A stretch of DNA of 64,000 nucleotides from a virus. Each line of letters begins with the position of its first letter. The stretch's first letter is position 1. Of the stretch, positions 27,901 through 59,347 are shown one piece after another. A program made the translations under genes and the position numbers. The notes beneath the pieces are model-generated. The model saw nothing but the letters and a program-made list of their open reading frames with translations, was not told where the DNA came from and did not search any database. The DNA is taken from positions 21,686-85,685 of the IMG/VR virus record IMGVR_UViG_3300030102_003270. The stretch is one strand, 5' to 3'.

Positions 27901-30900
27901 TGGCGACAAAACCAAACTAGACCATATCACTGTCACACAAGCAGTTGATTTAGATACGATGGAAAGTAATATAGCAACTAACAATGCTAAAAACACAAAC
28001 GTTTCAACGAACCTATCAGTAAGTAGAGATGGAACTAAATTACACGTTGTATCTTCTGACGGTACTAATGCAGAACTTCCATTGGCAGACACTAACAATT
28101 GGGGTGTTATGTCTGATGAGATGTTCGATAAATTAGATGGTATTGAAACAAACGCAACTGCTGACCAAACAGGAGCAGAAATAAAGACAGCACTTTTCAA
28201 TGAATCTGACACTAATAATCTTACAAATGCCCTATTGAGTAAACTCAATGCTATTGAAGCATCAGCAGATGTCACTGATGCAGATAATGTAGCAGATGCC
28301 GGAGCAATAATGGATGGAGACTTCACCAGTAATGGATTCATGAAAAGAACAGGTGCAGGTCAATATAGCGTAGATACAAACACCTACCTAACTGCACATC
28401 CAACAATTAGCGGTGCTGCGAGTAGTAGTGACAATTCTGGGAGAACGTATATCCAAGACATAACTCTAGATTCTAATGGTCACGTTATTGGTATCGCCAC
28501 TGCTACTGAAACTGTCACTAACACTGATTCAGATGTATCTGTTCTATCTTTGAAAACAAGATTGAATTCTGACTTCAATGGAGACATAACCATAGGAAAT
28601 CAGACTGATGATACTGTAATTATCACAGGCGATTTATCAGTTGGAGGAGATTTCAATATCACAGGAGACATAAACACAGTAAACGTTACTGACTTGGATG
28701 TGGTTGATAAAACAATTACAGTAGCAAGTGGAGCAACAACATTGTCTAATACTGATGGTGCTGGAATACAATTTGGTGCAAATGCCAGTGCGCCTACATT
28801 CAAATGGGATAACAGCAATTCTAGACTTGCATCCAGCAGACCAATATCCGCTAGTAGTTTTATTGGTGACTTAACTGGAAATGTCACAGGAAACGCTTCG
28901 GGTCTTTCTTCGACTTTAGCGATATCTAGCGGAGGAACAGGAGTCACAAACAGCAATACTTGGTTGAATAGTAGAATCACCACAAATGCTGATGGTTCGC
29001 TTAACTATGATGCTACTACTGCCACAGCAGTAAATCACGATAGCCTAGCAGGTTTCGTAGCGGCAGAACATTATAGATGGGATAATGACATAAGCAGCAC
29101 TGCACAAATCAATGCTGCTAATATTCCTACATTGAATCAAGATACAACAGGAACAGCAGCAGGTCTTTCTGCAACCTTAGCAGTTTCTAGTGGTGGAACA
29201 GGGTCTACGACTGCTCCTATGGTTGGAGTGATTACTGCTGCTAATGCTGGTGCTGCAAGAACAGTATTAGGATTAGGAACAGCAGCAACACTGTCTGGCA
29301 CAGGTAATATCCTAAATGGCAACACAGGACTAGTAACTGGTGATACGGTATTTGATTACTTTAGAGCAACCACATTAACAGTGGGGCAGACAATAGAAGC
29401 AGCAGGGACAAATAAACTTCAACTAAAAGCAGGTTCAAGTTATATTGACATTCTAGACGGTGGTGGAAACAATCACATCAATGTCGTTCCTGCTAGTGGC
29501 CGTTTGAATATATTCGGAGAAACAATTGCTATTGGTGAGGCAGATTCAACAATAACAACCGGAGGAGCGTATGACTTGACTCTAGATACAAACGGAGGAA
29601 CAAACTCCGGTTCGATAAAGATACTAGATGGTGCAAATGGAAACATAGAGTTGGATAACAATGGTTCGGGACAAGTGGTATTCAAGGGTAATTCAACGAA
29701 GGGTTCCGGTCAATTTGTATTGAACTGTGAACAAAACTCACATGGTATAACAATCAAAGGTCCACCACATTCCGCAGGAGCGTCATACACACTGACATTA
29801 CCAAATAATGATGGCAACTCTAACCAAGTCCTAAAGACAGATGGTTCTGGTAATCTCAGTTGGGTTGACCAAAGTAGTGGTGGTATCTCCGATGTGTCTT
29901 CTGACACAACACCACAATTAGGTGGTGATTTAGATGTTAATGGAAATAAGATTACATCGGCCTCAAATGCTGATATCACAATAGAACCAAATGGAACAGG
30001 TGACATTAATCTCTACGCTGATACAGTAATTGCTGGAGATGCTTCTACTGACTTCAAGATACAGCACAGGACAAAAACAAATTCGCATATGACATTCTTG
30101 AATAACGGTAACAATCAATTTACTGCTGATGCAAATATATTTCTCAATGCAGATGAAGCGGGTAATGGTAACAGTCTAATTAGGTTGAATGCCCTTAAAA
30201 CCACACTTGGAAAGTCCAATTTCGATGCTACTCTAACTACACAAGGAACAGGCGACTTAACTCTAAGCACAAATGGAGGAACAAATTCTGGAACAATACA
30301 AATCAGTGATGGTGCTAATGGAGACATTACAATCACACCAAACGGAACAGGTCAAGTAAATATGGGTAATTACCAATTTAAGGTAGACCAAACATTAGGT
30401 TCTGGACAAGATAACTATGTTCTAACTTATGATGATAGTGAGGGAACTATTAGTTTTGAGGCCAATGGTGGTGGTGGCGGTGGTGGTGCTGTTTCGGCAG
30501 TAGCCAACGGTGCTAACAATCGTATTGCTACGTTTAGTAGCACAGATGCTTTGAATGGTGAGGCTAATCTCACATTCGATGGAAGCACTCTATCAGTAAA
30601 TGATGCGGGTATAGACATAAGGGAACAATATGGAAGATTAAATTTCAAGAGGGATGCATCTACTAATTTTGCGAATAACTACGCTATCTACTTCTATAAC
30701 AATCAGAATTCAATTAGAGGTGGAATACAATTCAATGTATCTGGCGATAGATTAGGATTTGCTAGTGGTGGTGGAGGTGGCGGTAATTACCAACTATACA
30801 TCCAAGATGGTGTTATTTATCCTCCTGTTGATGATGACGTAGATTTAGGAAAATCAACTAACAAGTTCAAGGATTCCTTCTTCGGCCTAGTTGATGCTGA

Positions 30901-31804
30901 GAACTTCAAGATAAATGGTGGACAAGGTTCTGATGGTCAAGTGCTAACATCAACAGGTAGTGGTGTTGCTTGGGAAAATCCAAGTGGAGGAGGTGGTAGT
31001 GCATCACCTTCTGGTAGTGATGGTCAAATACAGTATAACAACAATGGAAGTTTTGGTGGAGATGCAGACTTTGTTTGGGATGATACCAATAATAGATTGG
31101 TCATAGGCTCAGTCACATCACAACATGACAGTCTAAAGCAATTGACCGTCAAGGGACCAGATGCGGGAATGCTCATAGAGAAACATGATAATAGTTCAAG
31201 TGGTGGACCTACTATCGCACTTTACAGGTATTCTGCATCAGAAGCCGATGGTGACTTGATTGGGCAGGTGACTTTTAGAGGTGAAGGCTCAACAGGAAAC
31301 CCATCAACATACATGATGATAAGAGCAGAAATAGAAGATACAACTGAAGGAACAAAAGATGGTTCATTGATTATTAGAGGATTGGTCAACAACTCACAAA
31401 CAGACTTTGTTGAAATAAACTCAGCAGGGCATACTCTAAATCAAGGGTCATACAACGTAGGCAATGCATCTACTGATGCTAATACAGTATCGGGGTCTAG
31501 TCTTGGTAATGGTAGTTCTGTGACATTATTTACTGTTCCAGCCACTACTAGAGGTTTTAGAGCAACTATATACGTCAAAGACACAAGTAATACTGAATAT
31601 CAGATTGAAGAGATAATAGGATATAACACAGGTTCGGGAGTTGATTTTTCATCATTCGGTCAAGTATACAGTGGTTCTGCACCTATTGGTTCTTTGAATG
31701 CAACAAACAGTAGTGGCACAACATTAATACAATTCACAAATGGACAGGGTAGTGCAATTAACTATCAAGCCAGCATTAGTGTGACACATATGGATTTAAG
31801 TTGA
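24998..31804 (+). CDS. Giant tail fibre
   Basis: 2268 aa, TAATG overlap with the previous gene. It contains classic tail-fibre repeats: at least five 'VGLGNVDN'-type repeats (residues about 297-573), three 'KLDGIEA.A' repeats (about 900-1090), and two 'TNGGTNSG.I.I.DGANG' repeats near 1530 and 1755. A typical 'LKTDGSGNLSWVDQ' segment and poly-Gly linkers also occur. These are collagen-like or triple-beta fibre elements. The last 150 residues may be the receptor-binding tip. No S74 chaperone domain is visible. Confidence 0.85.
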   Translation: MTEFSGFISTLKIAPSTSDHLEDAIDNIHSGIIKALNVADAGSFIAHGFMVTSNINGTFNISEGGYFDKGEYKTLGAQTNADPGNAFTGATDYDWYGFIVINSSGAIAFRGDSSLGNSAAKTADLNDGDIPICVVQIGKGTTNTNLSAARKIQYFGIKKTSNVLTAGEENSGDFRKLFEVKTDGDIYSYNASNAFHTKLAFTNASGSNKTVTVPSITGTLITTGDSQTVSTSMIEDGAVTLAKTSGLQGSLTFGIANTNAVKVDGTITNGDFARFTGTGLEGRSISEVKTQLALDKGDVGLGNVDNKSSSTLQTEILNAATASDVGLGNVTNESKATMFTSPTFTGTISIPNISNLETAVAANTAKTVRTDSEINALAQALIDDLIAGAPTALNTLNELAVAIQSNDSDITGITTALGNRLRIDINNQNLNATQLTNVKTNLSLSKADVGLGNVDNDSTATIRAGTTKANVGLSNVLNQAQITTFVSDNAPTATAIGDLWIDSNDNNKMYRASATGSSDWVAVTLGKGALGLVKADVGLGNVDNITTAQMRAGVTHSDVGTTKSDIGLGNVENKSSATIRGEIEVSNIPDLPTSKITTGTFADGLISKSSVIAHSPSATKGDIGDLGSDIDISNDFMYVFDSSANNNIKGTTIDEILGKITSSQLVGTGKVFSTLPASGAEVNVQADFNETDNTSDAFIQNKPTIPSGNQIIDWTQDQGSTNINAGNYINTNQLTTFDIGVDTDNNPTTIAHGETLTFTGGTGISTTTTADGTITITNDNPDQTVSLTGSGATSVSGTYPNFTISSTDNNTFRTVSVDTNGDGSANETLGTSETLTIKKGSNITLAEASGVVTITNAAPHIATNLGSSTATNQITITSSTGNNVVVGEATSSIAGLMSTTHHDKLDGIEASADVTDTDNVTNAGALMDSEVTNLAQVKAFDSSDYATAAQGAKADSAQQPPSEGAFANGDKTKLDHITVTQAVDLDTMESNIATNNAKNTNVSTNLSVSRDGTKLHVVSSDGTNAELPLADTNNWGVMSDEMFDKLDGIETNATADQTGAEIKTALFNESDTNNLTNALLSKLNAIEASADVTDADNVADAGAIMDGDFTSNGFMKRTGAGQYSVDTNTYLTAHPTISGAASSSDNSGRTYIQDITLDSNGHVIGIATATETVTNTDSDVSVLSLKTRLNSDFNGDITIGNQTDDTVIITGDLSVGGDFNITGDINTVNVTDLDVVDKTITVASGATTLSNTDGAGIQFGANASAPTFKWDNSNSRLASSRPISASSFIGDLTGNVTGNASGLSSTLAISSGGTGVTNSNTWLNSRITTNADGSLNYDATTATAVNHDSLAGFVAAEHYRWDNDISSTAQINAANIPTLNQDTTGTAAGLSATLAVSSGGTGSTTAPMVGVITAANAGAARTVLGLGTAATLSGTGNILNGNTGLVTGDTVFDYFRATTLTVGQTIEAAGTNKLQLKAGSSYIDILDGGGNNHINVVPASGRLNIFGETIAIGEADSTITTGGAYDLTLDTNGGTNSGSIKILDGANGNIELDNNGSGQVVFKGNSTKGSGQFVLNCEQNSHGITIKGPPHSAGASYTLTLPNNDGNSNQVLKTDGSGNLSWVDQSSGGISDVSSDTTPQLGGDLDVNGNKITSASNADITIEPNGTGDINLYADTVIAGDASTDFKIQHRTKTNSHMTFLNNGNNQFTADANIFLNADEAGNGNSLIRLNALKTTLGKSNFDATLTTQGTGDLTLSTNGGTNSGTIQISDGANGDITITPNGTGQVNMGNYQFKVDQTLGSGQDNYVLTYDDSEGTISFEANGGGGGGGAVSAVANGANNRIATFSSTDALNGEANLTFDGSTLSVNDAGIDIREQYGRLNFKRDASTNFANNYAIYFYNNQNSIRGGIQFNVSGDRLGFASGGGGGGNYQLYIQDGVIYPPVDDDVDLGKSTNKFKDSFFGLVDAENFKINGGQGSDGQVLTSTGSGVAWENPSGGGGSASPSGSDGQIQYNNNGSFGGDADFVWDDTNNRLVIGSVTSQHDSLKQLTVKGPDAGMLIEKHDNSSSGGPTIALYRYSASEADGDLIGQVTFRGEGSTGNPSTYMMIRAEIEDTTEGTKDGSLIIRGLVNNSQTDFVEINSAGHTLNQGSYNVGNASTDANTVSGSSLGNGSSVTLFTVPATTRGFRATIYVKDTSNTEYQIEEIIGYNTGSGVDFSSFGQVYSGSAPIGSLNATNSSGTTLIQFTNGQGSAINYQASISVTHMDLS
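25889..26716 (+). repeat. Five DVGLGNV-type fibre repeats
   Basis: Copies start at about 25889, 25967, 26339, 26603 and 26690. Each encodes Asp-[Val/Ile]-Gly-Leu-Gly-Asn-Val-x-Asn. Spacing is irregular (78-372 bases). Such repeats can drive recombination and fibre length variation. Confidence 0.75.
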
Positions 31805-38828: not shown

Positions 38829-39746
38829 TTACCACCATTCATCTAACGTCTTTTGTTTTGAGTCATTTTTTATTGGGGCTAGACTCCAACCCATTGCCTT
38901 GTATATTGGTTCAGCCTTCTTTATAATAGATTCTGCATAATGGGGCCAATCTGGTGTATGTCTATACAATTCTTCCTTTGTAGAAGCAGCGATATAGGAC
39001 GGTCTTTTGACTACGCCTGTAACCGGATTAACGTAGGTTGTTCTCCTAACGTCATCTGCTACCTTTAGATAAACATAAGAATCATCTATCTTATTGTCTT
39101 CATTCTGATGATTCCAGATAACACCTTCAATGCCAGAACCTATACTTGGCCTTTTACCAGAAGTTGTGACCACATTCAATTTTTGACCGCACTTACTACA
39201 ACATGCCTCATGACTGTCTCGCTTTGCTTCATTGTGAATATCAATGCAATCTTGCATTGAAAGTGCTTTTTTGCAGTCATTACACTTGTAAGATAGCCTT
39301 TCTGGTCTATATCTGCTTCTGTTAATCAGATAGTCAACTGGGACTTTTCCTTCAAGGACTGCGTAATATGCCTTCTTCAACATGCTAGTTATTTCTAACT
39401 CGGTGAATTGACCAACCCACATTTTCAGAATGCTCATCTGAGTCTCCTTGGCTAGTTTGGTTATTGATAACCGCTTTGCAGTAAAACCCGTCATTACAAA
39501 TTCTGGCTCATTCAGATACTTTCCATCCTTCCAAGAAATCAAACCAGCGTTTCTATTCTTAGTTAGACCTACACCTAGAGACTGATAGTATTTCTCAAAC
39601 TCCAAAGTAACAGGATGTTCATCCAAACCTAACAAGTTAGGAAATATCTGCCTAACATGATTGTTTAGTAATTGTAACGTTGCTTCTGCTTCTTCCATAG
39701 GCATTTGAACGTATATTGAATCAGTGTGTCCATAAACAACCTTCAC
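38829..39746 (-). CDS. polB2: DNA polymerase B, C-terminal half (motif C, thumb, PIP box)
   Basis: 305 aa from GTG 39746 with GGTGATT five bases upstream. It begins almost at once with 'VVYGHTDSIYVQ', family B motif C (His where the first Asp of DTD usually is; the catalytic Asp is kept). 'FVMTGFTAKRLSITKLAKETQ' matches the palm-thumb junction. A zinc-ribbon insertion ('CNDC'...'CSKC') lies at about 155-190. The chain ends 'KQKTLDEWW', a PCNA-binding PIP box. It must pair with the N-terminal half encoded upstream to make an active enzyme. Confidence 0.88.
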   Translation of the reverse strand: MKVVYGHTDSIYVQMPMEEAEATLQLLNNHVRQIFPNLLGLDEHPVTLEFEKYYQSLGVGLTKNRNAGLISWKDGKYLNEPEFVMTGFTAKRLSITKLAKETQMSILKMWVGQFTELEITSMLKKAYYAVLEGKVPVDYLINRSRYRPERLSYKCNDCKKALSMQDCIDIHNEAKRDSHEACCSKCGQKLNVVTTSGKRPSIGSGIEGVIWNHQNEDNKIDDSYVYLKVADDVRRTTYVNPVTGVVKRPSYIAASTKEELYRHTPDWPHYAESIIKKAEPIYKAMGWSLAPIKNDSKQKTLDEWW

Positions 39747-39931: not shown

Positions 39932-40018
39932 CTAATCACCAAACAGAAAGCGATACAGGATAACGCTCATAGCGGAAACATACAATACAATTATACTGAA
40001 ACTGACGACATTCATCAT
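39932..40018 (-). CDS. 28-aa hydrophobic micro-ORF between the PolB halves
   Basis: ATG 40018 overlaps the TGA of PolB-N (ATGA), with GGTGATGGAG upstream. Nearly the whole peptide is one hydrophobic helix ('VVSFSIIVLYVSAMSVILY'). It ends 'RFLFGD', and its 3' end forms the binding site of the next micro-ORF. Confidence 0.52.
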   Translation of the reverse strand: MMNVVSFSIIVLYVSAMSVILYRFLFGD

Positions 40019-41685
40019 AACTCCATCACCTTGAAAGCCGCTTCCCTAATTGCTTCTCTAGCACTAGCAGTTATACTAGCAGCCAAATCAACATCAGCCC
40101 AACCAAATCCTTGATACCCAACCACTCCATAGAATGAAGCCATCAGTCTCTTAACTGCTAATTGGTTGTTGTTCCACTTAGCATATTCAGCAGGGTCTTT
40201 TGCGTTATACATTCTCTTCTTGTATTCCGTCCTTAGTTTCTTTAGGTCTAATACTGCCTTTGGCAGAAGACCCAATTCATCCGTCCTGTAATATTTCCAG
40301 TCTTCAAACTTGACAGGACTGAAATCTCTTGGTATCAGGACGTTCACACCAAACTCAGTTGGTTCCTTTGATTTAGTCTCCCATGATATATTACGGGCAA
40401 TCATCATACTAGGATATAGCCCTGCAAAATCAAATGCAGCAACACCTAGATGCAAACCATTGGTTCCTTCTGTCTCCGGGTTGTAAATCATAGCACCCTC
40501 ATACTCCACCCTGTCACCTTCTTTGTCTCCTGTTGGAGCCTTCCAAGTAGCATTACGCATGAAGTATATTCCACCCATGTTTGATGCATAGAAACATGCA
40601 TCGAATGGTGCAACAATCAAACGCTGAAGTGATATGATTGCCTCAGAAGTATAGTTTTCTTCATCCAATCTAACAATCAAGTCAACGTCCTTTCTAGCAT
40701 AGTCTAGATAGTTTTGAGTATCTTCTAACCATCCTCTTTGAAAGAACTGATTCTTGTCTGGAAACCTATCACTGACTAGTTTCTTCTCACCAAGGACATT
40801 CTCAGAAACATAGTCCAATGCCAATGAGGGTAATGTTCCCCTTTGAGCATCATTCCATTGTCTCTCAAACGCCAAGTCTAGATTCAGAATCAACCTTCCT
40901 CTAATCGGTTGCTCGATAGGAGTATAGGAATTGACTGCCTTACTGAGTTTTATGCCACCAGAATAATACACTCCCTTGACATCATTGTAAGGAGATAGAA
41001 GTCTTGGGTCTATATCATTGGCATGTAATCTCTCAATTAACTTAGGCAAATCGAACTTTGAACCAAACCAAGCAATAAGCATGTCTGGGTCTTTTTCCGT
41101 AATCTCCTTGACGAATGCAAAAAGCATACTCTTCTCAGAATCATAGGGCTTTGAATGTCCTCTAATCTTTCTATTGATTGAATCTGGTTGCCACCAATAT
41201 ACATTAGATTTCTTAGTATAGTTGTCATAATAGGAAATACAAGTAATAGCACCGTTATACTTACCACGCTGTTGCCACTCTAAATCCCAGTAAAACTTCC
41301 TAAGTCTGTATTCTGGCAGTGATGTTAATCTGTCAATTGCATACCGATAATGAAAGGGAACGTCTGCCTCAAAGGTTTCATTCCATTGCTTACGCAGTTC
41401 CCTAACGTAGTTTGGTTTTGGTGGACTCCAAGTAACTTTCTTCAAAGCCCTACCATCAAGAGATACAGAACCATCAACAGTATAACTTAGATTGATTCTA
41501 AACGAATCCTTCCTACCATTGACGTATTCTGTAATGTTGACTCCTTGCCTTTCATTCTCATTTGCCAGAATGTAGAAATACGGATTGAAATCCGCATAAC
41601 TTACATTCGACTCTAATCTATTGTTGTTCTCATCTCTCCATCTAAGAACAAACATATTCGCATTGTCTATTGCACTAATTATCAT
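40015..41685 (-). CDS. polB1: DNA polymerase B, N-terminal half (exonuclease, motifs A and B)
   Basis: 556 aa, start at ATG 41685. Exo I 'WDLEW' (Asp134, Glu136), Exo II 'WFGSKFDLP' (Asp212), Exo III 'YARKD' (Tyr329, Asp333), motif A 'DFAGLYPSM' (Asp419) and motif B 'KRLMASFYG' (512-520) are all present. The frame then stops after 'ITASAREAIREAAFKVMEL', exactly the helix that precedes motif C in intact family B polymerases. Motif C is encoded 269 bases downstream in a second gene. Proofreading residues look intact. PCNA lies directly upstream. Confidence 0.93.
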   Translation of the reverse strand: MIISAIDNANMFVLRWRDENNNRLESNVSYADFNPYFYILANENERQGVNITEYVNGRKDSFRINLSYTVDGSVSLDGRALKKVTWSPPKPNYVRELRKQWNETFEADVPFHYRYAIDRLTSLPEYRLRKFYWDLEWQQRGKYNGAITCISYYDNYTKKSNVYWWQPDSINRKIRGHSKPYDSEKSMLFAFVKEITEKDPDMLIAWFGSKFDLPKLIERLHANDIDPRLLSPYNDVKGVYYSGGIKLSKAVNSYTPIEQPIRGRLILNLDLAFERQWNDAQRGTLPSLALDYVSENVLGEKKLVSDRFPDKNQFFQRGWLEDTQNYLDYARKDVDLIVRLDEENYTSEAIISLQRLIVAPFDACFYASNMGGIYFMRNATWKAPTGDKEGDRVEYEGAMIYNPETEGTNGLHLGVAAFDFAGLYPSMMIARNISWETKSKEPTEFGVNVLIPRDFSPVKFEDWKYYRTDELGLLPKAVLDLKKLRTEYKKRMYNAKDPAEYAKWNNNQLAVKRLMASFYGVVGYQGFGWADVDLAASITASAREAIREAAFKVMEL

Positions 41686-50456: not shown

Positions 50457-50658
50457 TCTCATCACCTATTGCTTTTCTTAATGCTTTAATTAGCGTCTTA
50501 CATTCTTCTACATTTACTCTCAATCCCTTTCTAGTAGGATTTCCACCACTATACCATCGCATATCAACGATATCAATGTTCCAAGTGTTTGCCGTCCTAA
50601 CAACCAATTCTTGATTGGCGTTTCTTGGGATTCTTGCTATTATCTTCTCATCATTCAT
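50407..50658 (-). CDS. PC4/YdbC-like ssDNA-binding coactivator
   Basis: 83 aa from ATG 50658, GGAGG upstream. 'NIDIVDMRWYSGGNPTRKGL' followed by 'VNVEECKTLIKALRKAI' matches PC4-like proteins: a 'DIR.WY' strand, a 'PT.KG' turn, then a helix. Such proteins bind ssDNA and melted promoters. It overlaps the histone-like gene by 50 bases. Possibly a transcription or replication cofactor. Confidence 0.65.
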   Translation of the reverse strand: MNDEKIIARIPRNANQELVVRTANTWNIDIVDMRWYSGGNPTRKGLRVNVEECKTLIKALRKAIGDENGNSKFDEEKSKEQTE

Positions 50659-51064
50659 TTTGGATGCCTCCTTTGAATAACTCCAAGTCTTGATGACTGA
50701 ACATGTATCTAGGTGCAGCAAACTCATCTAATCTGTTTGCTACCCATACTGAACCACCTAGACTACTAATCTGAACAATCTCAAAACTACCCATCTCAGT
50801 TTCTATCACCTCAACAGTATTTACCTTCGGCACCAATCCATATAACCTAGTCAGTTCTGAAGATACTGCGCTTAGATTGTTAGCCACATATTGTATTATA
50901 TGCGCTCTTTGTATTGGTATCTTAGCATCCACTGTGAGATTTATCTTGCCCTCAAACTTACAGGCAATACAACCCCTACCTTTCTTTCCATCCTCATATC
51001 TACAAATGGGACATGGTATCTCAGCAGGTAAGGGTGCAGGGAATTTGACTGTTATAGCACTCAT
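50651..51064 (-). CDS. Zinc-finger protein
   Basis: 137 aa from ATG 51064, which overlaps the upstream TGA (ATGA). 'CPIC' and 'GCIACKFEG' near the N-terminus (about 18-40) resemble a DnaJ-type CxxC zinc site; the remainder is alpha/beta. Function unknown. Confidence 0.6.
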   Translation of the reverse strand: MSAITVKFPAPLPAEIPCPICRYEDGKKGRGCIACKFEGKINLTVDAKIPIQRAHIIQYVANNLSAVSSELTRLYGLVPKVNTVEVIETEMGSFEIVQISSLGGSVWVANRLDEFAAPRYMFSHQDLELFKGGIQNE

Positions 51065-51513
51065 TCCCTGCCATCCCAAACCCTGTATATTATCTCATAC
51101 TCTATGGTAACATCAAATGGGAATGCAGCGAAATGCATCGTGGCATTACCCAATTCTGGTGCTAGACCATTAGACCATAGATAACCATCCTGTTGTAGAA
51201 GTCCGGTCATCCTGTATGTTTTGTTGGTGAAGGTCACTGTGTTGTTATCAACAACATAACTCAAATGCTTCGCAGTGTAGTTGAAACTGAGTAAGTCAAT
51301 CAAACCGTGTGTGGTATTGGTATCTAACCACATTTCTTCTGCGTAGACCAAGGTTGTGTTATTTTCTAGCATTAGAGTGAATTCACCATTCATCTTCTGC
51401 CATTCCTTCTGTATTCCATCATCTCCACCATATACATCCTCCGGGTCTGGAATTGCTTCAGCACAACCAGCAAACAAAGCACATACAATCATCAAACTCA
51501 TTATTTTCTTCAT
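51061..51513 (-). CDS. Secreted lipoprotein with many glycosylation sites
   Basis: 150 aa. Signal peptide with lipobox-like 'LFAGC' (Cys17) after a short basic start. The mature part is beta-rich and holds six N-x-[ST] sequons (NNT, NTT, NYT, NNT, NKT, NAT). This indicates a protein anchored outside the archaeal membrane and N-glycosylated. It could block superinfection or alter the host surface. ATGA overlap with the JAMM gene upstream. Confidence 0.68.
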   Translation of the reverse strand: MKKIMSLMIVCALFAGCAEAIPDPEDVYGGDDGIQKEWQKMNGEFTLMLENNTTLVYAEEMWLDTNTTHGLIDLLSFNYTAKHLSYVVDNNTVTFTNKTYRMTGLLQQDGYLWSNGLAPELGNATMHFAAFPFDVTIEYEIIYRVWDGRE

Positions 51514-51974
51514 TCTTCTTCCTCTCCCACAAAGTAGTGCTGGACATATTCTTGATAGTCTTGACCGAAGGGACCAACGCCGAACTTCAAAGCCATTCTC
51601 TCGTTACTACCTAAAACAGTTGCCTCATCCATGTGATTTCGATACAAAGATATCGTCCTCAAATCTGTGCTACTAAAGTATGCTTTGCCAAAAGGATGGG
51701 TATGAATCCATTCTTTCAACGGAAACTTCATCTTGGGTTTGTCTTTACCGTATAATTGCTCATCTTGTCCATCAAAGGAAACATAACCGGGAGAACCGAC
51801 TGAGATGAAAAGATTATCATTTGCATCTATTAGCACTTGAACCTCTCTAGGTTTATCAAAAGCAGTTAGAGACATTTCCCATATAGCATAATACAAAACT
51901 TCTCTATTCCATTTGAATCCTGCTTCAATCTGTTTTCTCCAATCATGTTTTTTAACTTCTAAGTCTTCATACAT
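51510..51974 (-). CDS. JAMM/MPN metallopeptidase
   Basis: 154 aa from ATG 51974, overlapping the preceding TAA. 'WIHTHPFGKAYFSSTDLR' gives the exact JAMM signature: His91-x-His93, seven residues, Ser101, two residues, Asp104; Glu33 is a candidate for the upstream acid. JAMM enzymes remove ubiquitin-like proteins from targets or trim their precursors. The E1-like gene two positions upstream and the Gly-Gly-Leu protein at 59.1 kb make that role likely here. Confidence 0.82.
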   Translation of the reverse strand: MYEDLEVKKHDWRKQIEAGFKWNREVLYYAIWEMSLTAFDKPREVQVLIDANDNLFISVGSPGYVSFDGQDEQLYGKDKPKMKFPLKEWIHTHPFGKAYFSSTDLRTISLYRNHMDEATVLGSNERMALKFGVGPFGQDYQEYVQHYFVGEEEE

Positions 51975-52321
51975 TAATAAACCCACCAATATACTATAAC
52001 ACCTATTACCAGCGATAAGAATCCAATAACAGCGTATTTAATGTTGTTGCTTTTAGGTTCCTTTGTTTCTAAATGCATCTTTACTTCTTCAAGTATAACT
52101 ACATCTTCTTCTGGTTTTTCTACTTCAATTACTGTATGTTCCTCAACAGGCTTGCTAGTAGGCCAAGATTCTCCTGTCATAGCCCTGTATTTTGCCCTTA
52201 CAGAACGTGGTGTTCTGTTCTCATAGCCATTCGCTATCATTTCCTCAGATGTCGAATTGACATCTCTTCCTTCTTTAACTAACATCATTAGCATTTCTTC
52301 TTGTTCTTTCGTCCAACTCAT
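51974..52321 (-). CDS. Membrane-tethered SANT/Myb-like protein
   Basis: 115 aa, GGAAGTGAATAA before ATG. 'SWTKEQEEMLMMLVKEGRDV' then 'RTPRSVRAKYRAM' is a SANT/Myb-type three-helix unit (1-52). After an acidic linker, residues about 92-115 ('IKYAVIGFLSLVIGVIVYWW') form a tail-anchor membrane span. It lies between the E1-like and JAMM genes. It might hold DNA or the ubiquitin-like machinery at the membrane. Confidence 0.65.
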   Translation of the reverse strand: MSWTKEQEEMLMMLVKEGRDVNSTSEEMIANGYENRTPRSVRAKYRAMTGESWPTSKPVEEHTVIEVEKPEEDVVILEEVKMHLETKEPKSNNIKYAVIGFLSLVIGVIVYWWVY

Positions 52322-52335
52322 TTATTCACTTCCTT

Positions 52336-52923
52336 TCATATATTTACTATTCTTTTGTCAAATACGTTCTCCCCATTGAACCATCTTTGCATCCATTGTG
52401 CTGCCATGCCAGCGATTGCCACATGGGTAAAATGCAAATTCTCAGTCTTCATTGACTTTCCAAACGATTCACCTTGACAACTGAATGAACCGTCTGGCCC
52501 TGCTAGGAATGTATCGCATAGTTTTGGGTCAGTCAAATAACTGATTAATGCACCATTCCTACCTTGCGCTCTCAAGTCCAACCACTTTGTTTTGCAGTCT
52601 TCTTGAAACCCCTGTCTGTAAAGCAAACGCCTAACATCTAGATTATCTGCACAACACACAACCAAATCAAAACCATTCAATTGCTGTTTCGTAAGGATAG
52701 GGAAAGGCTTCCTACTACCTATCACGTCATTCTCCACAATACAACTAACTTTGGGTTTATCTAAGTGCGTAGTATTGAAGTTCTGATAAAACAGATTCTT
52801 CTCTTCAACGCTATCTGGGTCTGATATGTGTATGTCATACAACCCTGTCTTATGCAATAGTGGAGTCAAATAACTCCCTATTCCACCTACTCCTATTATC
52901 AATATCTTTCTTTTCTTATTCAT
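52336..52923 (-). CDS. E1/ThiF/MoeB-like Ubl-activating enzyme
   Basis: 195 aa with AGGTG upstream. Nucleotide loop 'GVGGIG' (11-16), 'SDPDSVEEKNLFYQ' (35-47, matching D.D...NL.RQ with Tyr for Arg), 'ADNLDVR' (92-98, matching DN..xR), and 'SCQGESFG' (Cys149) at the place of the catalytic Cys, then 'AIAGMAAQWMQRWFNG' matching the usual 'GA.QA.E..K...G' helix. Adenylation features are kept in a short chain. It would activate a Gly-Gly-ending protein. Confidence 0.82.
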   Translation of the reverse strand: MNKKRKILIIGVGGIGSYLTPLLHKTGLYDIHISDPDSVEEKNLFYQNFNTTHLDKPKVSCIVENDVIGSRKPFPILTKQQLNGFDLVVCCADNLDVRRLLYRQGFQEDCKTKWLDLRAQGRNGALISYLTDPKLCDTFLAGPDGSFSCQGESFGKSMKTENLHFTHVAIAGMAAQWMQRWFNGENVFDKRIVNI

Positions 52924-53851
52924 ATCTTACACCTGCAATAAACTGCTTGACTGTCATTTTAGCCAAGGCTTTCTTGTCCACATTGAACATACTGAATGTC
53001 TCTTTGTTCCTATTCCTCAATGATACAGGAGTACAATTGGTGGCATTGCCTATCTCATGTTGAGTAAATTCTGGCTGTGTTCCAAATGCCCTTAGACATA
53101 CTGTAATCCATAACGCAGAAGCCATGTAACTCTTAGTGAATGTTATATCTCTACTAGTCACATAGTTGTGGACGTATTCTATCACTTCTGCTGAGTCCTT
53201 CTTAAAATTCCTCTTTAGTTCCTCATTGCCATACTTCGATATTATTAGGTCATGTGTGACCCTATCGCTCCAAGACTTTATCGGCATTGAATGTAATATG
53301 TATGGCTTGTTCAATGCTCTCGCTAACTTTCTAGCACACTTAGATACCTTTGAATTAGGTAAACTGTTATTCTGCGCTACCTCAAATACAGTCACAGGTA
53401 TTCCATTTTCACGTAGAACTATCAGTGCTATTGCTGCTGCTCTAATGTCTATGTTATATCCCTGCATTTCCCTGCTGAAGAACAGCCTCTTGTAATAGTG
53501 ATGCGCTCTCTCCTTCAGTGAGTTATTCGGTAGATATGGTGATAGAACCATATTCAACTCAATGAAACCCCTGTTTAGGGATTGTTGTTGCCTACCCTTG
53601 AACTTCAATTGAGTCCTACTTAGCCTCTTGATATAACTACCACTGAAACCAGTGCTGTTGAATACAGAACCCAATCTTCCTTTGTCACCAATCCTCAAAG
53701 CCTCAGTGCCATCTTCATTCAATGGTAGTGATTGTGATACCCTGTCCTCAAATATATTAGAAACAAGGACAAGGCCACAATCAGAACATACAGTTTCACC
53801 TAATCTATCGTCAACATAAGTTGATGTTGAGTCACAATTCATGCAATTCAA
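52916..53851 (-). CDS. tfb: Transcription initiation factor B (TFB)
   Basis: 311 aa. N-terminal zinc ribbon with Cys3, Cys6, Cys22 and Cys25, a B-reader/linker region, then two cyclin-like repeats (about 105-200 and 210-305). Length matches archaeal TFB (300-330). It would recruit host RNA polymerase to viral promoters. It is placed between the E1-like gene and a gene of unknown function. Confidence 0.9.
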   Translation of the reverse strand: MNCMNCDSTSTYVDDRLGETVCSDCGLVLVSNIFEDRVSQSLPLNEDGTEALRIGDKGRLGSVFNSTGFSGSYIKRLSRTQLKFKGRQQQSLNRGFIELNMVLSPYLPNNSLKERAHHYYKRLFFSREMQGYNIDIRAAAIALIVLRENGIPVTVFEVAQNNSLPNSKVSKCARKLARALNKPYILHSMPIKSWSDRVTHDLIISKYGNEELKRNFKKDSAEVIEYVHNYVTSRDITFTKSYMASALWITVCLRAFGTQPEFTQHEIGNATNCTPVSLRNRNKETFSMFNVDKKALAKMTVKQFIAGVRYE

Positions 53852-55200
53852 CCGTTAATCACCTTCCAATCTTCCTCATGACCCATTATATCACCGAAGG
53901 GGATGGGGAACCTAGATTCCGCATCCTCAACATTCTTCAAGTTATTAGGTAGATACCTACCAATGGTATTCACTAGTTTAATCGTTATATTGTCATTCAA
54001 CAATGCTAGACCCCTAGCAGCATATTGGTCGCCAAGGCTTGAATTGGTGTGGATGTTATCTATGCAAATCGGGCCTCTTAATTTGCCACCCATGAAATTC
54101 ATACCATGTGTAGAATTGTTCCTGCCTGTATCGTCTTCTGGAACGAAATCCTTGTGTATATACACAAAGGTCTTCACCTTCTGAATCTGGGTCTTGTAAT
54201 TGGAGTCAACAATAACCCAATCTGCTTTCTTTCCACGAACAAGCATAGCAACGTAATTTTCGTTGATTTCAACCAATCTTATTCTATCTGGGTATCTGAC
54301 TGTCAATGAATGCATCAGTTCTTTGGCTCTCTCCTCAACTATATCCTGTGTTCTGTTTTGACATAGGAATTCAACCATAAGTTGTTCTTGTGAAGATGTT
54401 GGCGGTTCTCCCATCAATTCTGTCCATAGTTTCTTGGGTGACATATACGCCCATTTTCTTGCTCTTGTTTGACCATGATAGAAGTAATTGACAAACACAT
54501 CCAAGTCCTTTACACTTATTGGACCCCATACTCCATCAGATATCTCCAATACAGCAACGTCATTATCAATCATCTTAGTATTCAGTCTAACCTCAACCTT
54601 CTCCCTAGTCTCAACGTCGAAGAACCAAAACGGTGTTCTATTCTCAAGCACGTATGAGACATTCTCCGGTAGCATTATCATTCTGAATAGGTATATTGTC
54701 AAGACTTGAGCATCTTCCTCAAAGCAAGACCTATACAAAGCACGACTCAATGCAGTCATCAGATTCTTCTTAGTGATTCTTTGACTCATCAGTTTGTAGT
54801 ATGGGTCATTCTTCTCTACCATGAATGTAGCATTGTTGTTATTGGGTAATACGAAGGCCACCTTGAAATCTTTAGGTGCTTGTCTCCATCTGCTTCTAGC
54901 CCCCCAACATAGGAAATTCGTCAGTGATTGCTTTATTCCCTCAATCAAAGGTTCTCCCTTATTGGTTCCTCTAGCAACATGGCAGTTCAATTCATACCTG
55001 TTTTCCCAATCAGCACTAGTACCACTCATTATCGCATATGTTGAATAGACATCAACATCAGTATAGTGATGTCTGTTACTGTCATCGGCAGTATTGACAA
55101 TCAATTTGATTCTGCACTTGTGTCCATAATCATCGAACATATCACTCAGTCCCTTTGAGAATGAGTTTCTTTCTCTTTTCATATTCATCGAGAGAACCAT
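53848..55200 (-). CDS. Unknown protein, possible E2-like C-terminal domain
   Basis: 450 aa from ATG 55200, AGAGG upstream. No clear family. The C-terminal third has strands 'IRLVEINENYVAMLV', 'WVIVDS' and 'VKTFVYIHKDF', then 'THGMNFMGGKLRGPICIDNI', whose 'GPICIDN' (Cys about 379) is reminiscent of the active-site 'G.ICLD' of E2 ubiquitin-conjugating enzymes, with a His upstream. Its place next to TFB and the E1-like gene makes this worth testing, but the match is weak. Confidence 0.6.
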   Translation of the reverse strand: MVLSMNMKRERNSFSKGLSDMFDDYGHKCRIKLIVNTADDSNRHHYTDVDVYSTYAIMSGTSADWENRYELNCHVARGTNKGEPLIEGIKQSLTNFLCWGARSRWRQAPKDFKVAFVLPNNNNATFMVEKNDPYYKLMSQRITKKNLMTALSRALYRSCFEEDAQVLTIYLFRMIMLPENVSYVLENRTPFWFFDVETREKVEVRLNTKMIDNDVAVLEISDGVWGPISVKDLDVFVNYFYHGQTRARKWAYMSPKKLWTELMGEPPTSSQEQLMVEFLCQNRTQDIVEERAKELMHSLTVRYPDRIRLVEINENYVAMLVRGKKADWVIVDSNYKTQIQKVKTFVYIHKDFVPEDDTGRNNSTHGMNFMGGKLRGPICIDNIHTNSSLGDQYAARGLALLNDNITIKLVNTIGRYLPNNLKNVEDAESRFPIPFGDIMGHEEDWKVING

Positions 55201-55294
55201 CAAAGCCCTCTTGATACCTAGTCTTGTTCATTATCCTTCTATATTGATTCCTTGTGCATCCATATCTTCTCATGTAATAATTATCTCTATTCAT
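55142..55294 (-). CDS. 50-aa basic small ORF
   Basis: ATG 55294 overlaps the preceding TGA (ATGA), with GGAGGAAGAGGA upstream. Rich in Arg, Tyr and Asn ('MNRDNYYMRRYGCTRNQYRR'). Its 3' end overlaps the next gene by 59 bases in another frame, which lowers confidence. Confidence 0.45.
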   Translation of the reverse strand: MNRDNYYMRRYGCTRNQYRRIMNKTRYQEGFDGSLDEYEKRKKLILKGTE

Positions 55295-55473
55295 TCCTCT
55301 TCCTCCTTAGCAATATCATTTATCTTCTCTCTAAGAGATTGCATCTCTTTAACCAACCATCTAACAGAATGGTTATTCACATCTCTTCTGTTGATTATAT
55401 TCAAGGCCAATTCCATCCCATCTAACTTGCCTTGAACATAATCCATGTTCTCTTTTTGTGGTAGTGTTGTCAT
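55291..55473 (-). CDS. Small coiled-coil protein
   Basis: 60 aa, ATGA overlap with genes on both sides. Charged helix with heptad-like spacing ('VRWLVKEMQSLREKINDIAKEEEE'). Unknown role. Confidence 0.55.
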   Translation of the reverse strand: MTTLPQKENMDYVQGKLDGMELALNIINRRDVNNHSVRWLVKEMQSLREKINDIAKEEEE

Positions 55474-55787
55474 TCTTCTTCCTCTCCCAAAAATATACTC
55501 TTACCGAAATTGACGTGCCATTCTCTTTGTTCATTGTAGAATCCTTCTGCATCTAGTTTCCTCATGTATTCCAAGTCACATCCCTGTGATATCATGTGAA
55601 CCAATATAGCATCCTTTGGAAGCCTTGGGAACTCACTCCAAGAATACCTTAGTCCATTTACTATCGGTTGCCTTAGTTTACCATATTTCCTACTCTTGTT
55701 GAATACCTTGTTATCCAAAAGCCATCTCCTGTAAGACTTAATCAGAAGACCCTTGTTCATTTTATCGTGAACCTGTTTCATATCCAT
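55470..55787 (-). CDS. Unknown small protein
   Basis: 105 aa, basic N-terminus, two Trp-rich segments ('SWSEFPRLPKDAILVHMI', 'QREWHVNFGKSIFLG'), acidic end. It overlaps its upstream neighbour by one base and its downstream neighbour by four. No family recognised. Confidence 0.62.
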   Translation of the reverse strand: MDMKQVHDKMNKGLLIKSYRRWLLDNKVFNKSRKYGKLRQPIVNGLRYSWSEFPRLPKDAILVHMISQGCDLEYMRKLDAEGFYNEQREWHVNFGKSIFLGEEEE

Positions 55788-56215
55788 CAGTAAACCACCT
55801 TCACGAACTCTACCTTCTTGTGATACTTAGTTGTCAAATACTTCGTATCTGTCAATGAAAGGAACTCCATCTCCAATCTCTTCCTCTTTGGATTGAAGAA
55901 GTATCTCCAATAGATGTGCTTGTTGTTCCACTTTGTTCCTTGTGTTCTCTTCATGGTAGTGGCCTTCTCTATTGCTAGAGCATCTTTGACCAAATCATCC
56001 ATCGTTATGTTCTTGTGTGAGAAGTTACTCTCAAACCTGTCAATGAAATGAGGGGTAAATACAACGTAGAAGTAATGTTTACCGTTAGGTTTCATCACCT
56101 TGTATTCTTGGGATGAGAATGGGCTAAACCAGTTACCACACTTAACACACTCCATCTTACCGTTTCTTGTCATCTCAAATTCAGTGCTACCACATTTACA
56201 ACTAGTGAATCTCAT
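55787..56215 (-). CDS. Zinc-ribbon protein
   Basis: 142 aa. 'CKCGSTEFEMTRNGKMECVKCG' (6-27) is a typical N-terminal zinc ribbon. The rest is alpha/beta and basic, suggesting nucleic-acid binding. ATGA overlap upstream. Confidence 0.65.
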   Translation of the reverse strand: MRFTSCKCGSTEFEMTRNGKMECVKCGNWFSPFSSQEYKVMKPNGKHYFYVVFTPHFIDRFESNFSHKNITMDDLVKDALAIEKATTMKRTQGTKWNNKHIYWRYFFNPKRKRLEMEFLSLTDTKYLTTKYHKKVEFVKVVY

Positions 56216-56475
56216 TCCGAATCCTCCATAGTTGCATCTGCTCCATAGACTATGATAGGCTTATGAGAGTCTTTCACTTTCTGCTCCATTGACCTGCTAT
56301 CTACTTTCTTCTTTCCTGTAAATACGTTAAAGTTGCGTAGGTTCCACACTATACCGTGTGCAGTATATCCGCTTCTTTCCCATTTACTTATTTTTTCACA
56401 GACGATAGCATCTAATTCTTCCTCTAGTTTCGTTCTATATTCTTCCAGTTCTTTTATTGTTATTTCCATTTTCAT
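56212..56475 (-). CDS. Unknown small helical protein
   Basis: 87 aa. Helical N-terminus ('IKELEEYRTKLEEELDAIV'), then a basic middle. ATGA overlaps on both sides place it firmly in the operon. No motif. Confidence 0.58.
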   Translation of the reverse strand: MKMEITIKELEEYRTKLEEELDAIVCEKISKWERSGYTAHGIVWNLRNFNVFTGKKKVDSRSMEQKVKDSHKPIIVYGADATMEDSE

Positions 56476-56813
56476 TCCTCTTTGTTCATTTTAATATACA
56501 TAGCCATATCATATAGGTTTCTTAATCTAGAATTAACCTCACTATCACTTTCCGCTAGACCTGAGACTATGTAAAATCTGCGTAAATAACGCAGAAAAAA
56601 GTCTAGCGGTGCTTCTTCTCTTAGTGTATCTCCCATAAATGCTCGGAAGGCTTTCTTTGCCTCCTTAACATTTCTATAATTATATTCGGGCTTATAGTAA
56701 TGAGTAACCACACTAGGCATTATGTTGTCAATAGTGTCTATCTCATCCAAGAGATATTCACTAATCAAATTCAAGTCATCCAAATTCTTTACTATCTGGT
56801 AACTATATTTCAC
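56472..56813 (-). CDS. Unknown protein overlapping the ribonucleotide reductase end
   Basis: 113 aa from GTG 56813, five bases after AGGTGG. The longer frame would run back through the reductase C-terminus with no binding site. Helical, with Tyr-rich segments. It overlaps the reductase by 11 bases. Function unknown. Confidence 0.58.
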   Translation of the reverse strand: MKYSYQIVKNLDDLNLISEYLLDEIDTIDNIMPSVVTHYYKPEYNYRNVKEAKKAFRAFMGDTLREEAPLDFFLRYLRRFYIVSGLAESDSEVNSRLRNLYDMAMYIKMNKEE

Positions 56814-58677
56814 ATGCCCCACCTGCACAAGCCGGATTATCATTAAAATTATCATTATCATCATCAGTGACTTGTGTTAAGTCAATACTGTTCAGTGATT
56901 GCATCATCTTGTCATACGTCTTCTTATCCGTTGCCTCAAATGGTGGCTGTGGATATGCATTCTCATCATATGGGAAACAAGATAGTCCGTTGTAGAAGTG
57001 TCTATTCAACCACATCCACTTACCAACCTCATCCCACTTACCATCTGGAATATAGACGGTAGCAGATACATTATGCGTATTTTGACCATTGCTATGTCCG
57101 GGTGAAACCCATCGAATAGAAGCATCCTTCACTCTCTCAAGGAAAGCGAAAACATCCTCATCCTTGCTAGTGGTTGCTCCTATTGGTGCTTTTTGTGGTA
57201 GAGCAATACAATACCCATTGGGATTGAATTGGTCTTTCTCCATCAATTCTGGGTGATTCTCGTTAAGATAAACCGATATAGGCTCATCATCATTCACCCT
57301 TATTCTTCTGATGTAATATGGTGAATGCCATGCATGAATACCGCTTGACGTTCCCAATACACAAGAAGCAGTGCCAGAAGGCTTTATGCAAGTTAATCTT
57401 GCAGCCCTTTGGACACCAATCAAGTCTGCCACTCTAGCATTTTCTCTCTTGGCAACGAATACCGCACCTGTAACGTCTAGATTAGCAACCTTGTTACTTG
57501 CTAGTCCTGTCATTGAAACGCCTAGTAATGCATCCTTCTCCGTTGTTTCCTTCCATATATCCCTAAGATAGTGGAAGTCCGTGTATGAGGCTTGTAGTGT
57601 CCCTAAGAAAGATGCTGCCTTCACTCTATCATTCAAGTCATCTTGGTCTACGACATTAGAGACATTGCACTCAGTTAGATTGCAGAATTGATATGGCCTC
57701 AATGCTATCTCACAACAAGGGTTAGTTCCCCAATCCTTGTCATTTGTGAAATATAGTCCCGGTTCCCCGGTTCCTCCATCCTCTATTCTCTTCCATAGTT
57801 TGAAGAAAACATCCTCATCTATCTTATGCCTCAAAATGACTGCTGAGTTATTCGCTCTCATTCTTTGTGCATTACCATCCCAAAATGGCCCTGCTTTACA
57901 ATTAATCATCTCATCATCATCAATGCTGAATAGACTAATCATTGCTGCTCTACGAATACCACCAGACAATACCGCATCTGCTATGTGGCACATTATGTCA
58001 TGGCACTCAAGAGTAGTCAAATTAGTTCCATTCTCCTTGTTCTGAAGAATTCCCTCAATGATACTGATACAAGTTCTAAGAGGTGCTGGACCGGGTGCTT
58101 TACCACCACTAGTCTTCAACCTAGAGCCTTTTGGCCTAATATCATCATAGATGAATCTAGGTGTTTGAGTCAAATCTCCTGTGTAAGACCTAAACAATTC
58201 CTTGATTGCATCAGCCCAACCCATGATAGAATCCTCTATCACTATCTTTCTCTTTCTGTTGGGATTAGGATGCTGAATTGGAGGCAATTGCCTCACATGA
58301 TGCTTTTGAACGGAGAAACCTACTCCTGTTCCACCTAACAATAGGAACATTGCCTCATTGAAGCAACGTACATCATTGATAGGCATGTATGCACAATTGT
58401 ATATTCTGTTAGGGGATATCTCAATCGGCTTACCTGCGAAATGCATTGACCTCATCGAAGGCAATATCTTTCTAGGTATGACGTAATCAGCATATACATC
58501 CTCTATCTCTTGAAGGAAGTCTTCACCTAGATGCTTAAACTTCTCAATATGCATATCCATATTTCTTTGGCATAGTTCCAACCATGTCTCCTTCCTATTC
58601 TGTTCTGGCATATACTTTGCATACTTCATATATACCGTTATATCACTTAATATCTCTCTTGCTTTACTCTCTTGCAT
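56803..58677 (-). CDS. nrdJ: Class II (adenosylcobalamin) ribonucleotide reductase
   Basis: 624 aa from ATG 58677. 'RIYNCAYMPI' and 'LLLGGTGVGFSVQKHHV' match the monomeric class II type (L. leichmannii RTPR-like). 'NPCCEIALRPYQFCNLTE' carries the active-site Cys and Glu, and the C-terminus 'ACAGGACEI' has the redox Cys pair. No radical-bearing small subunit is encoded, in line with B12 use. It supplies dNTPs for replication, and a glutaredoxin-like gene lies about 2 kb upstream in the operon. Confidence 0.9.
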   Translation of the reverse strand: MQESKAREILSDITVYMKYAKYMPEQNRKETWLELCQRNMDMHIEKFKHLGEDFLQEIEDVYADYVIPRKILPSMRSMHFAGKPIEISPNRIYNCAYMPINDVRCFNEAMFLLLGGTGVGFSVQKHHVRQLPPIQHPNPNRKRKIVIEDSIMGWADAIKELFRSYTGDLTQTPRFIYDDIRPKGSRLKTSGGKAPGPAPLRTCISIIEGILQNKENGTNLTTLECHDIMCHIADAVLSGGIRRAAMISLFSIDDDEMINCKAGPFWDGNAQRMRANNSAVILRHKIDEDVFFKLWKRIEDGGTGEPGLYFTNDKDWGTNPCCEIALRPYQFCNLTECNVSNVVDQDDLNDRVKAASFLGTLQASYTDFHYLRDIWKETTEKDALLGVSMTGLASNKVANLDVTGAVFVAKRENARVADLIGVQRAARLTCIKPSGTASCVLGTSSGIHAWHSPYYIRRIRVNDDEPISVYLNENHPELMEKDQFNPNGYCIALPQKAPIGATTSKDEDVFAFLERVKDASIRWVSPGHSNGQNTHNVSATVYIPDGKWDEVGKWMWLNRHFYNGLSCFPYDENAYPQPPFEATDKKTYDKMMQSLNSIDLTQVTDDDNDNFNDNPACAGGACEI

Positions 58678-58679
58678 AA

Positions 58680-59063
58680 TTAACACTTCACTTGTTTACT
58701 GTATGGCATCTCACTTAGATTAGAAAACGCTGCCACCCATTCTCCTTCCTTTTTTATAGCCCATTGTTTTTCGACCAAGACCTCCCAATCTGGGAAAGTC
58801 TCGTAGGCTTTTTCACCGTATTTTTGAAGCATTTCCTCAAAGTCGGTGAACGTCTGTCCGTCATGGATTACTCGCATCGAACCATCACATATTATGATTG
58901 CCTTCTTACTGAATCCTAATACATAACCAACAGGGTAAAAGTCTGCTCTAACGACATCCCAATCCCTGTAAGTTTTTACTTCTCTAACTTGCCAACCGAA
59001 GATATTGAAAAGTGCTTCAAATTGGCCTTTATCTATAAAATTAATATTGTCTTTCAAATCCAA
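58680..59063 (-). CDS. Unknown protein
   Basis: 127 aa from a TTG start that follows GGAGGTTATGGT; no ATG fits. Mixed alpha/beta with several Trp. It ends two bases before the reductase start. No family recognised. Confidence 0.6.
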   Translation of the reverse strand: MDLKDNINFIDKGQFEALFNIFGWQVREVKTYRDWDVVRADFYPVGYVLGFSKKAIIICDGSMRVIHDGQTFTDFEEMLQKYGEKAYETFPDWEVLVEKQWAIKKEGEWVAAFSNLSEMPYSKQVKC

Positions 59064-59137
59064 ACCATAACCTCCAATGGTGGAGAGATAGGTGGACGAG
59101 AGGCTACGCCCACACTATCTCAAAACTGTGTAACGGT
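59064..59137 (-). other. Short gap with a small inverted repeat
   Basis: 74 bases without an ORF between the Gly-Gly-Leu protein and the next gene. CTCCA/TGGAG can pair near the ribosome site of the 127-aa gene. I see no promoter. Confidence 0.3.
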
Positions 59138-59347
59138 TCAAAGACCGCCAACAACAGCAGGGATTAACTCAACGTTCTCAACGCTATCCCAGTTAACCTC
59201 AGAAATCTGCTCTCTTGAGGTTAGTTCAGAATCAATAACCACCCAATGTGTTGGATGGTCGTTTATCTGCTCAATCACATCAGTATGGGAAATTCCCACT
59301 AACTCAGTGTGTCCTGTCTCATTTATTATTATCAATGTCAAACTCAT
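59138..59347 (-). CDS. Ubiquitin-like beta-grasp protein ending Gly-Gly-Leu
   Basis: 69 aa, with AGGAGG upstream of ATG 59347. The layout is that of ThiS/MoaD/SAMP: a first strand 'SLTLIIIN', a helix after 'GISHTDVIEQIN', a strand 'HWVVIDSELTSREQ', and a last strand 'NVELIPAVVGGL'. ThiS-type proteins end '.VEII.AV.GG'; here one Leu follows the Gly-Gly (67-68). The extra residue would have to be removed before activation, a job the JAMM enzyme at 51.5 kb could do. With the E1-like enzyme at 52.3 kb this forms a candidate conjugation or sulfur-transfer system. Confidence 0.68.
   Translation of the reverse strand: MSLTLIIINETGHTELVGISHTDVIEQINDHPTHWVVIDSELTSREQISEVNWDSVENVELIPAVVGGL

Follow-up and report, generated by a model that had tools for sequence, protein, structure and literature searches.

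A ubiquitin-like protein, a minimal E1-like enzyme and a JAMM peptidase encoded together in a magrovirus-like genome

Three genes on the minus strand

The stretch of DNA analysed here (the window, 64,000 nucleotides) comprises bases 21686-85685 of the 96,269-base virus record IMGVR_UViG_3300030102_003270 and encodes a small ubiquitin-like protein (Ubl), a minimal E1/ThiF-like enzyme and a JAMM metallopeptidase. A first-pass annotation, made from the sequence alone, had proposed that these three form one ubiquitin-like pathway in infected archaeal cells. All three open reading frames (ORFs) exist at the positions it had assigned, and all lie on the minus strand, a detail that it had not given.

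The Ubl gene (59138..59347, minus strand) specifies a 69-residue protein whose C-terminus reads NVELIPAVVGGL, a putative IPAVVGG-L precursor with a single leucine after the Gly-Gly; the plus strand across 59138-59347 is full of stops. As a single sequence the protein has no significant match in Pfam, PHROG or PDB sequences. Scans of viral contigs yielded 91 relatives, which collapse to 84 distinct proteins (one extra row is a longer reading of the same ORF). Reading frame and Gly-Gly are kept in all 84, so that a loss of Gly-Gly in homologues, named at the outset as evidence that would speak against the proposal, is not seen. Following the Gly-Gly are tails of 0-9 residues with 36 different endings among the 84 proteins, for example none, L, Q, Y, C, TQ, SC, SL, RF and SCTIDDDDY; nine of the proteins are tail-less and end at the Gly-Gly itself. 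Because the Gly-Gly is invariant while the tail varies freely, this is the pattern of processed ubiquitin-like precursors, and the tail would presumably be cleaved off.

An AlphaFold2 model of the Ubl, built from 74 sequences, has a predicted local distance difference test score (pLDDT) of 90.5, a predicted template modelling score (pTM) of 0.75 and the topology strand-strand-helix-strand-strand-helix-strand. Most of the PDB structures that a search with this model retrieves are ubiquitin-like domains, among them archaeal Mth1743, a bacterial Ubl and ThiS. The best match in a viral library has an E of 0.002 and a TM of 0.63, with several of the matches being tail tip proteins, and no fold neighbour in either collection falls below E 0.001. 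The pLDDT and the ubiquitin-like neighbours bear out the earlier claim of a beta-grasp protein, and together with the ThiS alignment that follows they make this almost certainly the fold of the Ubl. The Ubl profile also aligns end to end with E. coli ThiS, finishing at GG, with a local score of 18.1 (at most 15.4 in shuffles) and a global score of 16.3 (at most 10.7); none of 150 shuffles, in which the terminal Gly-Gly was retained, did as well. The ThiS and MoaD sequences used for comparison agree with the E. coli K-12 records.

The E1/ThiF-like gene (52336..52923, minus strand) encodes a predicted minimal adenylating enzyme of 195 residues with the motifs IGVGGIGS, DPD, CADNLDVR and SFSCQG, the last being part of GSFSCQG with the candidate catalytic Cys149. 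The GVGGIG and DN motifs had already been taken as E1-like, and the protein indeed matches Pfam ThiF at 2.2e-16 (60.2 bits, cut-off 28.1). Its family profile matches UBA5 (3e-10), MccB, Cap2, MoeB, Uba4 and ThiF, and the E1-E2 models of PADLOC match the E1 part (2.4e-9). The NCBIfam model SAMPActivE1UbaA gives 24.3 bits (1.8e-5), far below its cut-off of 450, so that orthology to UbaA is not supported. Residues G11xGGIG, D35, D37, N43, Q47, K58, D93, N94, R98 and C149 are invariant in 66 of 66 rows, and the nucleotide and Mg residues of the ThiF Rossmann domain (GxGGIG, D35, D37, N43, K58 and D93) are thereby conserved. A Moraxella phage protein that matched the E1 has both RYARQ and NLQRQ, and its gene neighbours, close to attR, are of chromosomal type; we set it aside as an ordinary host-like ThiF/MoeB enzyme.

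The third gene (minus strand, with an ATG reading of 154 residues that spans exactly 51510-51974) encodes a JAMM/MPN+ metallopeptidase with the signature HTHPFGKAYFSSTD, which is the exact HxHx7SxxD reported by the first-pass annotation. None of E44, H91, H93, S101 and D104 varies across the 66 rows, the remainder of the protein showing 25% mean column identity, and this is the conservation pattern of a working metal site. The family profile matches AMSH-LP (2e-5) and a 26S proteasome regulatory subunit N11-like protein (1e-3). On its own, the protein encoded here scores 16.7 bits with Pfam Prok-JAB, short of the 25-bit cut-off, and 53 of the 66 family members match Prok-JAB at E 0.01 or better. 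A tail-less Ubl is encoded in 15 loci, and every one of these retains an intact JAMM motif. Since maturation alone would not keep the JAMM where the Ubl is tail-less, the enzyme likely also removes the Ubl from targets, and an intact JAMM beside a tail-less Ubl is the best hint within the sequences of a reversible modification. The original idea of a precursor needing the JAMM enzyme thus fits the variable tails of most Ubls, with the reservation that the tail-less ones make maturation an improbable sole job for the JAMM.

Linkage and genomic setting

The E1 and JAMM genes are present in all 44 records of at least 60 kb that were examined for the trio, these records having been found via the Ubl or the E1, and 43 of the 44 have all three genes. 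The sole record without a Ubl breaks off 3.7 kb from the start of the E1, which is less than the spacing at which many Ubl genes are found. The separation of about 6 kb between the Ubl and the other two genes given in the first-pass annotation is correct: the Ubl-E1 distance is about 6.2 kb here, on the same strand, and 2.3-8.3 kb across relatives. Selecting loci by their DNA ligase instead, where 6 kb or more follows on the right, gives E1 and JAMM in 45 of 45 loci and the Ubl in 40 of 44 records, the other four ending 6.6-9.2 kb from the ligase, which is about the distance of the Ubl and too short to decide. The ligase profile was itself drawn from this virus lineage, and the two selections overlap in some records; for this reason, what the counts show is that the trio is standard in this virus lineage, not that it is independently scattered. 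An independent presence and absence of the three genes, which had been named as an outcome contrary to the proposal, is not observed, with the reservation that vertical inheritance within one lineage gives co-occurrence anyway. The order Ubl-E1-JAMM on the same strand is found in 126 of 126 loci, and the E1 and JAMM reading frames touch or nearly touch in several relatives. A specific co-evolution of the distances between the three genes was considered and dropped, as the distances of all genes of the region correlate (0.54-0.83) with no special signal for the trio.

The minus strand around the trio carries replication and transcription genes, comprising DNA polymerase B in two ORFs, a clamp loader, a match to a processivity factor, an ATP-dependent ligase, a TFIIB zinc-ribbon protein and a class II ribonucleotide reductase, whereas the tail genes lie opposite, on the plus strand. 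The DNA polymerase B matches (38829-39746 and 40015-41685) fall in separate ORFs, as described for Aoguangviridae. The published description of Aoguangviridae and Magrovirales lists two opposed modules, a split PolB, RFC-S, TFB and ligase (PMC10768690). With its PolB in two ORFs, clamp loader, processivity-factor match, TFB and DNA ligase opposite the tail genes, the virus agrees with that description, which is of tailed viruses of 90-110 kb and also includes a PCNA-like protein, and because of this agreement in gene content and module layout it is magrovirus-like. The host is likely a member of the Poseidoniales, a group of marine archaea. The plus strand of the window also has two very long ORFs, 17869-24654 (2261 residues) and 24998-31804 (2268 residues). 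Record L208 (G062, 184,733 bases) has two copies of the Ubl at a spacing of 92,933 bases, near the length of one magrovirus genome, and probably represents a circularly permuted genome of about 93 kb that was assembled twice over. A cellular origin of the Ubl was rejected: the only cellular carriers found are two contigs (L243 and L244) of one metagenome-assembled genome of the bacterium Altibacter (EAC109), which are probably mis-binned virus.

Several neighbours of the trio are themselves conserved. A TFB-like protein with a TFIIB zinc ribbon (52916..53851, minus strand; Pfam Zn_Ribbon_TF 1.7e-8) is encoded in 151 of 157 E1 loci, its frame sharing 8 bases with the beginning of the E1 gene here and likewise in the relative L007; a functional link is possible. 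Next to it lies the gene for a 451-residue protein, p451 (53848..55203, minus strand), found in 147 of the 157 E1 loci. Its Cys379, within GPICIDN, is invariant in 79 of 79 rows. Pfam scans, including Pfam-wide scans of 79 members, place p451 in no known family, and its AlphaFold2 model (pLDDT 89.5) is without a clear fold match. Downstream of the JAMM gene, a zinc-ribbon protein (CPIC...CxxC; 50651..51079, minus strand) with four invariant Cys is present in 146 of 156 JAMM loci, and between these two genes lies a putative lipoprotein (51061-51513) with a signal and an AGC lipobox-like site, matched in 58 loci. Directly downstream of the Ubl gene, 58680-59063 encodes a 127-residue protein of no known family that is found in 68 loci and often has a C-terminal Cys. 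A functional tie of the Ubl to the adjoining ribonucleotide reductase was also considered and rejected, as only 86 of 157 E1 loci have the reductase, the Ubl being retained regardless.

Relation to known systems

The functionally nearest known system is that of Haloferax volcanii (SAMP/UbaA/HvJAMM), which likewise combines a Gly-Gly beta-grasp modifier, one E1/MoeB/ThiF-like enzyme and a JAMM with no dedicated E2 or E3. The genes described here differ in being virus-encoded, and their E1 is shorter, is without the usual arginine fingers and matches UbaA only weakly. SAMPs end at Gly-Gly, whereas most of the viral Ubls are made with a tail after it. In Haloferax, activation of SAMPs proceeds through UbaA with no dedicated E2, and SAMP1 is taken off by JAMM1 (PMC4443979). 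A JAMM-trimmed precursor is known from the Caldiarchaeum subterraneum operon for ubiquitin, E1, E2, a small RING protein and an Rpn11-like protein, in which pro-ubiquitin has nine residues after Gly-Gly that are removed by a JAMM enzyme (PMC5654768). The Rpn11-like protein of Caldiarchaeum is also among the JAMM profile matches. Unlike in that operon, no E2 or RING is detected here, the genes are viral, and the Ubl sequence resembles ThiS rather than ubiquitin. ThiS-ThiF and MoaD-MoeB share the fold, the Gly-Gly end and the adenylation residues with the viral set; they differ from it in that the virus record has no sulfur-transfer partners, that a JAMM is present and that the E1 is without the arm and Arg discussed below. 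The cyclic oligonucleotide-based antiphage signalling system (CBASS) with Cap2/Cap3, as well as Bil, Bub and PRTRC, have the same logic of a Ubl-type E1 and a JAB, but here there is no E1-E2 fusion, no E2 and no adjoining defence genes.

The nearest viral relatives that we found of the E1 and the JAMM are crAss001 gp76 (E1 profile match 1.8e-18) and gp77 (JAMM, 2.6e-6); in these tailed phages of the Crassvirales, too, a JAMM gene and an E1-like gene are direct neighbours. The crAss001 gp76 has a long extra N-terminal part and NMSGQ, so that it too is without the NLxRQ Arg; gp79 is Ubl-like by eye only, at its N-terminus, and has no terminal Gly-Gly, and gp78 is unrelated to p451 by profile. 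The first-pass annotation knew of no such complete set in an archaeal tailed virus; for tailed viruses at large this has to be qualified by the linked JAMM and E1-like pair of crAss-like phages, a pair that comes without a recognised Gly-Gly Ubl. The crAss001 block gp79-gp75 (L245, 1250-6472) itself resembles a Ubl pathway, its annotations going no further than metalloprotease and thiamine biosynthesis protein; its gp78, of unknown function, has a conserved HSH and Cys. Phage tail Ubl-JAB pairs were mentioned in a 2006 survey of prokaryotic Ubl systems, where the lambda-type tail Ubl (TAPI) with JAB-NlpC (TAPK) is likewise a viral beta-grasp protein with a Gly alongside a JAB domain (PMC1779556). 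Our Ubl also has tail tip J proteins among its fold matches. An identity as tail-assembly Ubl and JAB was nevertheless rejected, as the genes lie in a replication and transcription module with an E1 and have no NlpC domain and no tail genes as neighbours.

Readings of the trio

That the three genes act jointly as a Ubl pathway in some form is, in our view, highly probable, and the form that we somewhat favour is a virus-encoded, E2-less pathway of SAMP/Urm1 type serving protein modification, which would probably be reversible. The computed support comes from fold, catalytic residues, tail pattern and linkage. For the course of such a pathway, we infer that the JAMM would cut the Ubl precursor after Gly-Gly where a tail is present, and that the minimal E1 would pair with the Ubl as its substrate, adenylate the Gly-Gly end using ATP and probably pass the Ubl to its own Cys149 as a thioester. 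The activated Ubl would then be attached to target proteins, either viral ones or those of the infected archaeal host, from which the JAMM could take it off again.

A number of points weigh against this reading. Its central step, modification of proteins by the Ubl, is one that we infer: fold, Gly-Gly with variable tails and linked inheritance speak for the original one-pathway claim, and leave protein attachment and sulfur carriage side by side. The PDB fold scores of the Ubl are weak (best E 0.02, TM about 0.35-0.55). In MoeB and ThiF, arginines reach the ATP site from the RYxRQ arm and from NLxRQ; the viral E1 is without the N-terminal arm, an in-frame stop lying directly upstream of its start, and the Arg of NLxRQ is missing (NLxYQ, with NLFYQ as opposed to NLQRQ). 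As arm and Arg help adenylation in MoeB and ThiF, the adenylation activity of the viral E1 is not assured judging by its residues. The Cys that had been assigned to the catalytic site is invariant, as described above, yet C149 aligns ambiguously to the catalytic Cys184 or the Zn-binding Cys172 of ThiF. Linkage that lies within one virus lineage is by itself no proof of joint action. Finally, no E2 or E3/RING was found, and as the E2 models were also silent in every control genome the absence of an E2 is weak; the Ubl would have to reach lysines by a route without a recognised E2 or E3. The "complete set" of the first-pass annotation is therefore complete as to Ubl, E1 and JAMM, and is less so in having no recognised E2 and a minimal E1 without arm and NLxRQ Arg.

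An alternative that we regard as possible, if rather unlikely, is a viral sulfur carrier, in which the E1 and a host sulfur donor would form a Gly-Gly thiocarboxylate for a cofactor, tRNA or nucleotide and the JAMM would mature or free the carrier, as in the CysO/Mec type. The likeness of the Ubl to ThiS above all, the ThiF-like E1 and the lack of a found E2 all agree with it, and JAMM and E1-like genes accompany ThiS/MoaD-like genes in sulfur-assimilation clusters (PMC1779556). Set against this, the virus record has no rhodanese, cysteine desulfurase-type aminotransferase or PP-loop thiolase (the controls were detected), and no conserved neighbour was recognised as a sulfur-acceptor enzyme. 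The sulfur carrier keeps its share of probability because host enzymes could step in and because archaeal Ubls can do both jobs, as they often do (PMC2948915). The virus probably runs a tagging or sulfur-carrier pathway of its own, since its relatives keep all three genes.

Quite improbable, in our estimate, is a four-part conjugation cascade in which p451 would supply an E2-like step through the invariant Cys of GPICIDN. The protein is linked to the E1 and invariant in its Cys, as detailed above, its C-terminal half is predicted as a helix, four strands, the Cys and helices, and the motif resembles an E2 active site. A profile alignment to four E2 sequences gives E 0.024, against 0.12-0.82 for unrelated controls, but this is not significant, there is no significant profile match to E2 or crAss gp78, and no E2 appears among the 50 best PDB fold matches listed or in the Pfam-wide scans; p451 was accordingly rejected as an E2. 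We consider it still less probable that the three proteins act separately, the E1-like enzyme modifying a small molecule or peptide like MccB, the JAMM acting on host SAMPs in the manner of a host deubiquitinase and the Ubl serving as inhibitor or decoy of host UbaA. MccB is among the E1 profile matches, several kilobases separate the Ubl gene from its two partners and the E1 is without the canonical arginines, all in keeping with separate roles; on the other side, a Gly-Gly that never changes, followed by variable tails, is what one expects of a substrate and not of a decoy, and the joint presence, order and strand of the trio are constant.

If the favoured protein modification is right, the TBP/TFB transcription machinery is a candidate target of the Ubl, on no better footing than other targets. 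What points to it is the overlap of the E1 gene with the TFB gene of the virus, together with a precedent in Haloferax, where TBP2 carrying SAMP2 is broken down by proteasomes (PMC4895103). A further-reaching proposal, that a virus-owned reversible Ubl cascade is a core function of magroviruses that redirects archaeal transcription or proteolysis, possibly with p451 as a new E2-like carrier, is in our judgement unlikely. A literature search found no description of an archaeal-virus Ubl pathway with its own modifier, activator and peptidase, and no paper joining magroviruses with ubiquitin, key magrovirus papers lying outside the coverage of that search. The set is small, and the Gly-Gly precursor gives a clean prediction. 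Should our reading be true, the minimal E1 without arginine fingers would be useful for understanding how Ubl activation became a signalling system. Nor would the trio be a chance passenger: nearly all long relatives that we examined have it, in an abundant virus group known from surface oceans around the world, and virus-controlled protein tagging or sulfur transfer would then belong to the way in which these viruses infect very abundant marine archaea.

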